Assembly: GCF_026965535.1 (NCBI RefSeq)
Contig: NZ_CP114039.1
Coordinates: 9,221,461-9,285,460 of the forward strand
DNA length: 64,000 nt
Direction of reading: 5' to 3'
Source: Corallococcus sp. NCRR
GTDB taxonomy: Bacteria > Myxococcota > Myxococcia > Myxococcales > Myxococcaceae
Shown here: positions 16,836-64,000 of the stretch, piece by piece
How positions within the stretch are numbered: the stretch's first letter is position 1
How the letters are laid out: every line of letters starts with the position of its first letter
Notes under the pieces: model-generated
What the model saw: only the letters and a program-made list of their open reading frames with translations
Database searches by the model: none
What the model was told of the DNA's origin: nothing
Position numbers and translations under genes: made by a program

Positions 16836-18719
16836 TCACAGGCCCAGCAGCGACTCCGGCTCCGGGGCGATCGTCTGGATGAAGTAGCCAGCCGTCCCCG
16901 CGGTGGCGTTCCCGTTCGCCGAGGTGCCCGGGATGATGCCTCCCGCGGTGCCGCCGTTGCCGCCGCTGCCACCGCCGCCACCGGCAGAGAGGATGGTGGT
17001 CGAAGGGGACACTGCCGCCGCGTTGCTGCCAGCCCCGCCCGCCGACACATCCACGCTTCCCGTCACGGTGGGGGACACCGGGGAGATGAAGTGGACGATG
17101 CCGCCGCCGCCGCCGCCACCGCCGCCTTCACCCGTGCCGCCGTTGCCATTGAAGCCATCCGCGCCCTTGCCGCCCGGCACGCTGATGGTGCCCGCCAGGG
17201 TGATGCTCCCCTTGGCCGCGATCAGCACGACGCCGCCACCGCCACCGCCCGTGCCCACGATGGACGCTCCAGTCGTCTGCGGGTTCACGCCGCCCTCGCC
17301 CTTCGCTTCGATGGACCCGCCCGAGGTGACGCGGACGTTGGTGCGCGAGACCAGCAGCACCGCGCCTCCGCCCGCCCCGCCGTCGGCGTTCGCGCCCGCG
17401 TAGAGGCGCGCTCCCGCGCCGCCCGACGCGGACTGGACCCGGCGGACCTGGGCCGCCTGGAACATCGTCAGGCCCTCGCCTCCGTTGTAGGTGCTCGCCG
17501 CCACCCGGGCGACGCCCGCGGGGGCCTCTCCGTTACCCAGGTCCTCCGCCGCGGGCAGCACGACGATCCTCCCGCTCACGGTGATGTCCCCCGTGGCGCG
17601 CAGCACCGTGCCGCTGGGGACCCGGAGCGTTCCGGAGGCCGCGACGGTGATGGTGGTGAACTGGAGGTTGAAGCCCGCGGGAAGCTGACTCACGCCCAGC
17701 GAGGTGGAGAGGTCCACGGTCTGGCCCGCGCTCACGTTGAACGCCCCCGCGGAGCCATCGCCGTAGAGCCCCTGCGTGCCCGCGGGCCCCTGAGGGCCCT
17801 GGGCCCCGGACGCACCCGTCGGCCCGGCGGGCCCCGTTGCACCGGTGGCGCCAGCGGGTCCCACGGCGCCCGTGGGGCCGGTCGGGCCCGTCGGGCCAGC
17901 GGGGCCCGTGTCGCCCTTCGCGCCCGTTGCACCGGTGGCTCCAGCGGGGCCGACCACGCCAGTCGCTCCCGTCGGACCTGCCGGGCCCGTGTCTCCCTTC
18001 GCGCCCGCGGGGCCCGTCGCGCCAGCGGGGCCGGTCGCGCCGGTCGCGCCGGTGGCCCCCGTCGGACCTGCCGGGCCCGTGGCTCCCGTGTCACCCTTCG
18101 CACCCGCCGGACCGGTGGCTCCCACCGCGCCCGTGTCTCCCTTCGCGCCCGTAGGGCCTGCCGGGCCCGTGTCGCCCTTCGCGCCAGCGGGGCCCGTCGC
18201 GCCGGTCGCACCGGTCGCGCCCGTATCGCCCTTCGCGCCCTCCGGACCCGCGGGCCCCGTGTCACCCTTGGCTCCCGCCGGGCCCGTCGCGCCGGTGTCA
18301 CCCTTCTCACCGGTGGGGCCCATGTCGCCCTTCGCGCCCGTGGGACCCGTGGGCCCGGCCGCGCCCTGCGGCCCCATCGGGCCTGTCAGACCGATGGGCC
18401 CCATGGGGCCCGTCGCGCCCGCCGGTCCCTGCACGCCTTGAAGTCCCTGGGGCCCCGGCGCGCCCTCCGCACCCGCCAGGCCCTGTGGCCCCTCGGGACC
18501 CATCAGGCCGGGTTCACCCGTGGCGCCCTTCTCACCCCGTGGGCCGGCCGGACCCGCGGGCCCCGTCGCGCCCGCGGGCCCCGGAGGACCCTCCGGTCCC
18601 GCCGGGCCATCACCCGCCATCCCCTCCGTGCAGGCGGTCACCATCAACGTCGCGCAGAGCGACAGCACGCGAAAACGCGAGAACACCCCACGCAAGGGCA
18701 CGAAAGCTCGAAGTGACAT
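16836..18719 (-). CDS. Collagen-like Gly-X-Y repeat lipoprotein
   Basis: A 627-residue predicted surface lipoprotein. The ATG at 18719 is 8 bases after GGGGAGGA. The signal ends in TLMVTAC, a lipobox. Residues ~40-315 are nearly uninterrupted Gly-X-Y triplets ([14 protein letters not shown] and many [12 protein letters not shown] units), as in bacterial collagen-like proteins that form triple helices. The C-terminal ~300 residues are Gly/Ser-rich with beta-strand-like segments ([16 protein letters not shown] and GGGG runs), perhaps a beta-solenoid trimer head. It likely projects from the outer membrane. It is divergent from a tail-collar-like gene, which also tends to form trimeric fibres. 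Confidence 0.9.
17765..18610 (-). repeat. Gly-X-Y coding repeat tract
   Basis: Degenerate 9- and 18-base coding repeats (CCGCGGGGCCCGT-type on the plus strand) that encode the collagen-like triplets. Near-identical stretches such as GCCCGTGTCGCCCTTCGCGCC recur, with 1-2 base changes, many times. Such tracts can change length by slippage or recombination. Confidence 0.85.
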
Positions 18720-61755: not shown

Positions 61756-62050
61756 GGCGTCCTCCGTCGTTGCGTCGTGCGTCCTCATGCCGCAAACCGC
61801 GCGTCTTTTCGAGGCCCCTCACGGGCAGGGGGCCACCGCGTGGGTCAAGACCGCCGGGAAGACGGCTGTTGCTCGGAAGACGCGGTGCATCATCCCGTTG
61901 CATCGCGAATGAGCGATGTGTTGTCCATCGACGGGAAAGCGCCGCGTGGGCCTGGGCCCATTGCCTCCGGGTGCTTACCAAGCCGGTGGCCGCGGTGAGG
62001 AGCACGCGGCCGGTTCCACCCGTCTCCTGAAGCAGGCCTGGATTCCCACC
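61756..62050. other. 295-base divergent intergenic region
   Basis: No gene or repeat that I can support. It should contain promoters for the aminopeptidase (minus) and the glycosyltransferase (plus), but I see no convincing consensus pair. Confidence 0.5.
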
Positions 62051-63295
62051 GTGCGACGCGTACTCGCCATCCTTCCCTACGTTCCGCTGCCTTCGGATAC
62101 GGGCGGCACCCTGCGCACGCTCGAGCTTGTGCGTGCCCTTGCCTCGCGCTTCACGTTGGACGTGTTCGCGGTGCACCGGGCGGGCAACGATGCCGAGGGC
62201 TTCAAGCGCTGGCTGGGAGAGCTGGGCGTGCCGGCCTCGCGGCTGCATCTGGTGGACCTGCCGCGCGTGGCGCCCGAGGAGACGCTGAACAGCACGCGGG
62301 CCTTCCTGCGGGGCACGCCGCTCACCTACGTCCGCTTCGCGCGGCAGAGCGTGCAGGACGCCTTGCGCCGGGTGCTGGCGGAGCGCGGTCCCTTCGACAT
62401 CATCCACTTCGACCACCTGCACATGGCGCAGCTGTTGCCGCTGGCGCGGCGGCTCAACCCGTCCGCGCACCTGGTCATCGACGAGCACAACGTGGAGAGC
62501 CAGCTGCTCGCGCGGATGGCGCCGCTGAGCCCGCCGCCGATGCGGCCGTTCCTGCGCTGGCAGTTCAACCGGGTGGAGCGGCTGGAGCGCGAGTGCGTGA
62601 GCCAGGCGGACACCGTGCTGGCGTGCTCCTCCGTGGACGCGGAGCAGTTGCGCGCCATGGGAGCGAAGCGGGTGGAGGTGGTGCCCAACGGCGTGAAGCT
62701 GCCGGACTTCGCGCCCCGGGAGAGCAAGGGCGACGACCTCGTGTTCGTGGGCTCCATGGACTGGTGGCCCAATGAAGACGCGGTGCTGCTGTTGGCGCGC
62801 GAGGTGTGGCCGCTGGTGTCGTCGGAGCTGTCGACCAGCAAGTTGATGGTGGTGGGCCGCAGTCCGCCCGCGTCCGTGCGAGCCCTGGAGAACGAGCGGC
62901 TGGTGGTGACGGGCTCGGTGCCGTCGGTGGCGCCGTACCTGGCGCGGGCATTGGCAACGGCCATTCCGCTGCGAGCGGGCAGCGGGACGCGCCTGAAGGT
63001 GCTGGAGGCCGCGGCGGCGGGTGTGCCCGTGGTGGCCACGCGCCTGGCGGTGGAAGGCCTGCCGGTGGTGGAGGGGCAGCATGTCCTCCTGGCGGAGTCT
63101 CCTCAGGAGTTCGCCGCCGCGCTGCGCCGGCTGCGCAATGATCCGGACCTCTGCAGCCGGCTCGCGCAGAACGCCCGCCGGATGGCGGAGTCCTTCGCAT
63201 GGGACGGCATCGGGGCCGGGCTGGGCGAGCTCTACCTGAACGCCGTGTCCGCGAGTGGCGAAGGGAAGAAGCTCTCCAGAGAGGAAGCCGTCTGA
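62051..63295 (+). CDS. Family 4 glycosyltransferase
   Basis: A 414-residue GT-B glycosyltransferase. The N-terminal domain begins LAILPYVPLPSDTGGTLRTL (sugar-acceptor side); the C-terminal donor side has LVFVGSMDWWPNEDAVLLL, then PLRAGSGTRLKVLEAAAAGV with the GT4 Glu-containing EX7E-like segment. It probably builds a surface polysaccharide. The start is GTG 62051, right at the conserved first strand; an upstream extension adds no family content. Confidence 0.9.
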   Translation: MRRVLAILPYVPLPSDTGGTLRTLELVRALASRFTLDVFAVHRAGNDAEGFKRWLGELGVPASRLHLVDLPRVAPEETLNSTRAFLRGTPLTYVRFARQSVQDALRRVLAERGPFDIIHFDHLHMAQLLPLARRLNPSAHLVIDEHNVESQLLARMAPLSPPPMRPFLRWQFNRVERLERECVSQADTVLACSSVDAEQLRAMGAKRVEVVPNGVKLPDFAPRESKGDDLVFVGSMDWWPNEDAVLLLAREVWPLVSSELSTSKLMVVGRSPPASVRALENERLVVTGSVPSVAPYLARALATAIPLRAGSGTRLKVLEAAAAGVPVVATRLAVEGLPVVEGQHVLLAESPQEFAAALRRLRNDPDLCSRLAQNARRMAESFAWDGIGAGLGELYLNAVSASGEGKKLSREEAV

Positions 63296-64000
63296 GCCAC
63301 GGGGCAGCGTGCGGAGAGCAGCCACCGCACGTCCAGGCCCGCCATGGATGACACCTGGGGACTCGCCCGCCGGGAGCGCGCCGCGAAAACCTGTCCGACT
63401 GTCCGACAGGTTTTGGGCGACCATCGCCGGCAGGAGCGGCCGCGCACCCGAGGCGTGGAAACCGGTCCGACTGTCCAACAGGTTCTGGGCGACCACCGCC
63501 GGAGCGGCGGCCGCGCACCCGAGGCGTAGAAACCGGTCCGACTGTCCGACAGGTTTTCAGCGGCCGCAGCCGAGGGGACGGCCGCGCACCCGAGGCGTGG
63601 AAACCGGTCCGACTGTCCAACAGGTTCTGGGCGACCACCGCCGGAGCGGCGGCCGCGCACCCGAGGCGTAGAAACCGGTCCGACTGTCCGACAGGTTTTC
63701 AGCGGCCGCAGCCGAGGGGACGGCCGCGCACCCGAGGCGTGGAAACCGGTCCGACTGTCCGACAGGTTCTGGGCGACCACCTTCGACGGGTGCCCCCGCC
63801 CAGCCGGGCATTGAAGACCGGTCCGACTGTCCGACAGGTTTTCAGCAGCCACGGAGGGTGGGTGCCGCCGTCCGTCGAAGCCGTGGTGACCTGTCCGACA
63901 GGTTCCGGGCGGCCTCGGCTGGCGGGAGCAGAGGCCCATCCGGGTCTTGGAAACGTGTCCGACTGTCCGACAGGTTCAGGCCGCACCGGGCAGGAGGGGC
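63296..64000. repeat. Tandem array of ~71-bp units with a GACTGTCCGACAGGTT core
   Basis: No gene. Nine cores are visible: 63397, 63469 (CCAACAGG variant), 63540, 63611 (CCAACAGG variant), 63682, 63753, 63825, 63888 (degenerate, first GACTGTCC half lost) and 63961. Spacing is 71-72 bases for most. Most spacers share GCCGCGCACCCGAGGCGT next to the core. Spacers after cores 2 and 4 are essentially identical, as are those after cores 3 and 5, giving a 142-base higher-order repeat. The array probably continues past the window. Most cores are preceded by AAACCGGTCC and form an imperfect palindrome. Confidence 0.92.
63386..63414. terminator. First array palindrome, terminator-like
   Basis: AAAACCTGTC (63386-63395) / GACAGGTTTT (63405-63414), a perfect 10-base stem with a 9-base loop and T-runs on both strands. 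It is 90 bases after the glycosyltransferase stop and is the only fully symmetric unit of the array. It could be the ancestral element and a working bidirectional terminator. Confidence 0.5.

Follow-up and report, generated by a model that had tools for sequence, protein, structure and literature searches.

A palindromic repeat array in Corallococcus as a probable gene-less member of a dispersed family partnered with a multicopy GntR/FadR-like gene

What could give rise to a short palindrome repeated nine times between two convergent genes, and what might maintain it? The origin and upkeep of short palindromic repeats is an old question, and the best-known answer to it is a transposase (RAYT). 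The array considered here lies at the end of a 64,000-nucleotide stretch of Corallococcus DNA (the window; G000:C1:9221461-9285460), from a genome consisting of one 9.79-Mb contig. From the analyses below, the array probably belongs to a dispersed palindrome family partnered with a multicopy gene for a GntR/FadR-like protein (gntR), as a member that lacks the gene and has multiplied locally; its repeats are putative paired GTNNNAC binding sites. The partner would in this case be a transcription regulator. What was observed is that the palindromes occupy near-fixed positions beside gntR, that related but different palindromes adjoin its homologues in other genera, and that gene units as well as bare palindromes occupy orthologous sites in some genomes and not in others.

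The tandem array occupies window positions 63391-63973. It is flanked by two convergent glycosyltransferase genes, one upstream on the plus strand (61916..63295; ORF at L129:3377-4756; Pfam Glyco_trans_1_4, 8.1e-24) and one on the minus strand that ends at about 64045, outside the window (L129:5506-6642; Glyco_trans_1_4, 6.6e-34). A search for GACTGTCCGACAGGTT with up to two mismatches found nine plus-strand sites in the window against 0.01 expected in shuffles, which bears out the earlier note's report of a tandem palindrome array; the single minus-strand match is a palindrome read back. Of the nine sites six match exactly, two carry CAACAG and the one at 63889 is truncated with a single GTCCGAC, so that the statement that each core holds two GTCCGAC copies applies to six sites and fails for the other three. 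All cores are on the plus strand. The first (63391..63409) reads CTGTCCGACTGTCCGACAG with AAAAC/GTTTT arms. Cores with a CGG arm follow at 63463..63481 (CAACAG variant), 63534..63552 and 63605..63623 (CAACAG variant, repeating unit 2 as part of a 142-bp dimer); the fifth core (63676..63694) repeats unit 3, and the CGG arm is found again in the sixth (63747..63765) and seventh (63819..63837). The eighth is the degenerate copy (63889..63904, two mismatches), and the ninth and final copy (63955..63973) has a GTG arm.

The reported spacing of 71-72 bp was recovered for most sites, the exception being one gap of 64 preceding the truncated site. TRF called a period of 71 with 6.4 copies (84% matches) and a period of 142 with 3.3 copies (91% matches). 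In units 2-5 two spacer types alternate, as the earlier note described, giving the 142-bp period. Reading past 64000, as had been recommended, showed that the array stops: its final core finishes at 63973, with further cores absent before the next gene. The window contains no gntR match. Elsewhere in the window, positions 17833-18366 hold long repeats of 9, 18, 45 and 90 bp (GCGCCCGTC) that by eye look collagen-like on one strand.

The array was then compared at the same locus in related genomes. Seven genomes with both flanking genes carry 8, 7, 3, 3, 2, 2 and 1 copies (up to three mismatches), and the copy number thus varies between genomes, a comparison that the earlier note had called for. 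Ten further loci had zero copies, but the downstream gene was not found at these. With up to five mismatches allowed, the locus in G022 showed five copies, mostly 42 bp apart.

The core is dispersed through the genome. The pattern CTGTCCGACWGTCCGACAG with up to three mismatches gave 172 forward and 173 reverse matches, near-perfect palindromes being counted on both strands, versus 3 and 2 for a reversed-pattern control, and BLAST with the array gave at least 86 matches (best 40 of 106 candidate places). With up to two mismatches the core was found in all 16 genomes assigned to Corallococcus through named matches, at 8 to 297 per strand. Of the 80 genomes from elsewhere in the taxonomic family, 19 have it, at up to 24. 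Among the at least 120 named stretches listed, 111 were Corallococcus, 6 Myxococcaceae MAG, 2 Hyalangium and 1 Dactylosporangium. Both searches had been proposed earlier, within this genome and in other Myxococcaceae, and both found the core. No match to plasmids was obtained at E up to 1, and viral_contigs gave 0 exact core matches; eight Vibrio phage records (E 0.1 over 33 bases) were taken as chance, and plasmid and phage origins were rejected. Rfam gave no match at E up to 1 for five loci. We found no published description of the palindrome family in the openly readable literature.

In twenty array loci of the same genome, the unit length is 68-72 bp in 51 of 75 units. Between arrays the cores are 81% identical, having been preselected at up to two mismatches, and the spacers 40%; within arrays the spacers are 71% identical (47 equal-length pairs, unit lengths 55-85 and one orientation only). 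Each core contains two adjacent GTNNNAC boxes with 8 bp between centres. Among 146 array cores selected by consensus similarity, both boxes are intact in 133. An extended hairpin around isolated cores was considered and rejected, as own arms pair somewhat worse (-12.45 kcal/mol) than the arms of other elements do (-13.94 kcal/mol; arms 13-30). The argument that the period precludes a repeated protein is right for the focal array and does not extend to the whole family: at four loci (L148:6458-6704, L187:5339, L189:5399 and L140:6092-6329) cores lie in frame inside very long ORFs, translated as PVGQSDRF or LSDSRTG, and the array periods are multiples of three (57, 72, 75). Three of these ORFs resemble NRPS adenylation regions when read by eye. 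At another locus, L191:5373-6363, degenerate cores are arrayed about 57-60 and 106-118 bp apart, some 3.5 kb from a gntR copy.

A multicopy segment flanking the cores encodes a GntR-family protein (PF00392, 1.3e-12), for which the FCD match scores 15.1 bits, below the cut-off of 24.3. In a Foldseek search with its AF2 model (mean pLDDT 79), GntR/FadR structures topped the list (6az6, 1.5e-6; FadR-DNA complex 1hw1, 1.9e-6), with TM-scores of about 0.3-0.5. We examined 37 Corallococcus copies of the gene (8 from G000, 12 from G018, 2 from G016 and 15 from named contigs), leaving out duplicates (L199-L201) and cut or partial copies (L059, L063, L066, L111, L123), the latter each with a core in the locus too. 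All 37 have a core 106-141 bp before the ATG, and 18 of them have a second at +933 to +1293 (up to three mismatches), where the 3' portion of the ORF is variable. Pairwise homology between copies begins most often in the -150 bin (206 of 666 pairs), at the upstream core, and the upstream linkage among paralogues is partly one of shared descent. The first 233 codons are free of stops in every copy (0/37 with one), and the changes are mostly at third positions. The GC3 of gntR is 0.843 versus 0.951 (sd 0.023) for 34 genes of the window. The seven DNA contacts of FadR were taken from the available part of PMC4259882; four are kept in the L176 copy and three throughout. R45, T47 and R49 do not vary among 14 copies, L176 has other residues in place of R35, T44 and T46, and H65 is H in L176 and some copies and R in the 14-copy consensus.

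The numbers of genes and palindromes go together within the genus. As gntR copies/forward cores, the counts were 8/169 in G000, 12/98 in G016, 9/76 in G017, 12/291 in G018, 13/92 in G019, 11/130 in G020, 1/10 in G021, 15/98 in G022, 1/11 in G023, 1/10 in G024, 0/16 in G025, 1/9 in G026, 3/76 in G027, 9/245 in G028, 11/196 in G029 and 4/22 in G030 (Spearman 0.74, p 0.001, n=16), with gntR counted among the best 29 candidates or fewer per genome and with draft assemblies that may collapse arrays. The single gntR of G021, G023 and G026 has a core on each side, and that of G024 has the upstream core only at a locus that ends early. Over 96 genomes, gntR presence was associated with at least three cores (20/5 against 3/68; Fisher p 4e-13, uncorrected for phylogeny). 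Across the order, gntR was found in 27 of 145 genomes, all from one taxonomic family (survey of the best 19 candidates). Cores without a detected gntR occur at the thresholds used in G025 (16) and G006 (15).

Related palindromes also adjoin gntR homologues of 46-64% identity in four other genera, mostly as different variants that are likewise dispersed. In the g3 genomes G002, G003, G005 and G007, which have one gntR each (47-50% identity), an identical 19-bp core variant flanks the gene on both ends in three of four. In G003 this is AACTGGTCCGACCATCGGACCAGTT, and both copies are among the genome-wide matches listed for G003; G002 and G005 have variants of their own with the far-end copy inverted, and in G007 only the upstream copy was seen. 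Forward matches in G002, G003, G005 and G007 were 44, 47, 66 and 66 for the type adjoining their own gene, 63, 47, 66 and 66 for the ACTGG type, and 44, 19, 74 and 0 for the TTG type, with controls of 0 throughout. Each g3 genome is thus rich in the type next to its gntR, yet G002 and G005 are equally rich in the other (63 ACTGG versus 44 of its own TTG in G002; 74 TTG versus 66 of its own in G005), and the variants track the gene loosely. G004 has 19 ACTGG-type matches and no detected gntR. In Corallococcus G022, a palindrome of the ACTGG type precedes the one gntR copy examined, and this genome has 119 matches of that type versus 34 in G000.

In G079, cores at -134 and +1002 flank the single gntR copy (64% identity). 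In G037, G039, G041 and G042, none of 20 copies has an upstream core; behind 19 of the 20, at +750 to +997, is another variant, located with a degenerate pattern and up to four mismatches; outside -400 to +1400 of gntR, 72 kb of these loci gave 0 matches. Genome-wide, this variant gave 42/31 matches in G037, 6/5 in G039, 11/6 in G040, 30/22 in G041, 24/21 in G042 and 21/20 in G080, and 0/0 both in G035, which is without gntR, and in G003. At least 29 gntR matches of about 50% identity to the Corallococcus gene were found in G037, together with one core of the Corallococcus type. A promoter box, CCACCCTGTCAGCCCCAGGTG, was noticed in G037, and some gntR copies of this genome (L259-L270) lie near a common GAACTCCTAAC stretch, possibly one end of a different mobile element.

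For thirteen G000 loci, the corresponding sites of up to five relatives were examined. In 20 of the 46 comparisons the core is missing, and in 17 both flanks align around an empty orthologous site; the remainder (L284, L308, L312) have a right flank that is also unaligned. The core site L173 is empty in all five relatives, and in the empty forms of L170 and L185 the two convergent stop codons almost touch, by eye. The gene, too, varies in presence: G000 and G029 have the gntR unit at L172, whereas in G018 its 1418 bp are missing at a contiguous junction, and G020 lacks the unit at L147 (1.9 kb versus 30 bp). For six of eight G000 copies, G018 has a gntR at the matching position. The L172 insertion begins on the left 166 bp before its first core, and the ends at L147 are 533 and about 170 bp outside the cores. 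Neither constant ends nor consistent target-site duplications were seen across the compared loci, apparent 5-bp overlaps at L171 and L188 being inconsistent across loci and rejected as such. The fully read 1.4-kb insertion holds no transposase-like gene. Of the marks of MITEs or insertion sequences, clean empty sites are present, but neither ends nor duplications are consistent between loci, and they fall away from the cores. Other inserts occupy two of the gntR sites. In G018, the site of the G000 gntR copy L182 holds a different insert (L320:744-4329, reverse strand) that has a core near either end, at most about 40 bp away, an AAA_15/AAA_21 ATPase gene, an adjoining gene of 177 aa without a Pfam match and a DUF2381 gene overlapping one end. 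In G020, the L172 site holds an insert without cores (L321:720-4124) with an AbiEii-type toxin gene (PF08843, 2.8e-20), whose AbiEi-like partner is below the cut-off.

Could the palindromes be transcription terminators or 3'-end RNA hairpins, with the arrays as terminator stacks? Their placement would be expected of such elements. We placed 155 clusters (50 in 45 G000 loci, 87 in 120 loci of the named collection and 18 in 15 G018 loci, clusters less than 600 bases from a locus end being left out) with a home-made gene caller based on codon usage, which misses most gntR genes, so that some contexts are those of the next called gene. There were 43 convergent, 73 tandem (57 nearer the stop), 23 divergent and 16 inside called genes; the convergent share of the 139 intergenic clusters (43/139) compares with 9.8% expected from G000 background intergenic bases (p 5e-12), an excess at gene ends. 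Moreover, the perfect isolated copy at L170 and focal unit 1 fold well against shuffles (z -3.63 and -3.66), and the arms covary (227 both-side changes versus at most 190 in shuffles), an excess for which selection for hairpins, the symmetry of dimer sites and palindrome repair could each account. However, shuffles fold as well as the two focal units with ACCGGTC arms (z -0.86 and +1.04; for 96 bases covering unit 1 and part of unit 2, z is -2.40), so only one of three folded units bears out the claim that most cores form hairpins, and full symmetry over 11 pairs is found in just 24 of the 146 array cores. A scan requiring a T run found 0 terminator-like sites in the focal region (L129:4600-5700; shuffle mean 0.5). 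The convergent genes at L170 and L185 manage without the element where it is missing, a core also lies upstream of gntR start codons, and the symmetry and end bias could stem from dimer binding and from selection against insertions in promoters. Despite the preference for 3' ends, a terminator or RNA-hairpin function fits poorly and we consider it very unlikely; the kept boxes and rare full symmetry would fit better with binding to the boxes in double-stranded DNA. About as unlikely is that these are inert REP- or minisatellite-like repeats that serve no function today and owe their spread and homogeneity to recombination and replication slippage. The copy number at the focal locus, from 8 down to 1 across seven genomes, and the homogenised spacers (71% within arrays, 40% between) speak for this. 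Against it, the cores are more alike between arrays than the spacers (81% versus 40%, on preselected cores), the GTNNNAC boxes are preserved, and the position beside gntR is near-fixed, with no early stops in 37 copies of the gene and mostly third-position changes.

In another explanation, the cores are ends or recombination sites of a trans-acting recombinase and gntR is one of several cargoes. The G018 insert with its ATPase-type gene and others between two cores is consistent with this, as are the 1418-bp gntR unit with its clean empty site and the lower GC3 of gntR. Yet the insertions at L172 and L147 do not end at cores, constant ends and target-site duplications were not seen, the G020 insert at the L172 site is without cores, and a recombinase alone leaves the persistence of related palindromes beside gntR across genera unexplained. 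This explanation appears improbable to us. Somewhat more attractive, although still doubtful, is a selfish regulator-operator element: a GntR gene without its own transposase would travel with its operators and seed dozens to hundreds of them, the transcription factor would take the part that RAYT plays for REPs, and factor and palindromes would co-diverge between genera. Confidence in this proposal and in the preferred one is held down because the insertion ends miss the cores and because the variants track the gene loosely.

We therefore return to the preferred reading, that of operator-like palindromes partnered with gntR. GTNNNAC is the box type that FadR-type proteins bind (PMC4494728), and we infer from the sequences that the GntR protein may bind the boxes of the palindromes. 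It would bind the paired boxes of the cores, regulate its own gene through the upstream core in Corallococcus, and also bind the scattered single and tandem copies, mainly behind genes. The location of palindromes beside gntR suggests candidate docking sites, gene and palindromes perhaps spreading together. The palindromes would spread like REPs and then expand locally in tandem, and the 71-bp array would have arisen by tandem duplication of one dispersed copy between the two convergent genes. For neighbouring genes a roadblock, a decoy or no effect at all is possible. Among the four roles suggested in the earlier note (terminator stack, protein-binding sites, REP-like substrate of a palindrome-mobilising enzyme, processed RNA), the ideas of protein-binding sites and of REP-like repeats are favoured, with a palindrome beside nearly every gntR copy examined, and the TnpA-REP enzyme is unsupported: PF01797 had 0 matches in this genome, while 5 of 14 control genomes were matched.

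The related palindromes beside a regulator gene span five genera of one taxonomic family, with variants that differ by genus. If the reading is right, some Corallococcus genomes hold well over 100 latent binding sites, mostly behind genes, and this would matter for interpreting myxobacterial regulation and for annotation.

Several known systems resemble this family in part. The neisserial dRS3/RS mosaic elements (NIMEs) are short inverted repeats with longer related spacers in intergenic arrays, and the present arrays share this description; the neisserial elements, to our knowledge, have no linked regulator gene. Rickettsia palindromic elements include copies in frame inside protein-coding genes, as do some copies here, but most of our clusters are intergenic (139/155). 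A CRISPR, also raised earlier, does not match, since the spacers are not unique: they are 71% identical within arrays, and the focal array alternates two types. The two genes beside that array encode glycosyltransferases. The closest organisation is that of REPs with RAYT, in which the palindrome flanks a dedicated transposase gene. Here the flanked gene is gntR: 18 of the 37 copies in Corallococcus and three of four in g3 lie between two palindromes, and most others have one on a single side. Unlike RAYT, it encodes a GntR/FadR-like protein, multicopy in several lineages, and not a Y1 HUH transposase (PF01797, Y1/TnpA-REP, 0 matches in G000).

REP, BIME and REPIN sequences are described, in the available parts of PMC2817692 and PMC3116915, as many short extragenic palindromes, single or clustered and also beside a dedicated gene. 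The present family is likewise short, dispersed, extragenic and of high copy number (172/173 matches versus 3/2; 139 of 155 clusters outside called genes). Many of its arrays, however, are head-to-tail. REPs bear a GTAG/CGTC tag according to the available part of PMC3733652. The other likeness is to FadR operators. Sites of the FadR subfamily are given as TKGT/ACMA, with GT and AC typically 3 nt apart and weaker half-sites 7-12 nt from the site centres (PMC4494728, available part), and the fadL site in the primer table of PMC4259882, as far as that source was available, is CTGGTCCGACC, which is close to the g3 palindrome variants. Here too GT-N3-AC boxes form a palindrome (both boxes in 133/146 cores) with a second box at 8 bp, and in both Corallococcus and g3 a copy precedes the regulator gene. 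The likeness is limited in that the commonest form of the core has CTGT, and TKGT is matched by the TGGT and TTGT variants only. The present sites differ from FadR operators in number and arrangement: about 10 to 290 per genome, mostly behind genes, in tandem arrays and also behind the regulator gene itself, which is multicopy and present in some species and absent from others.
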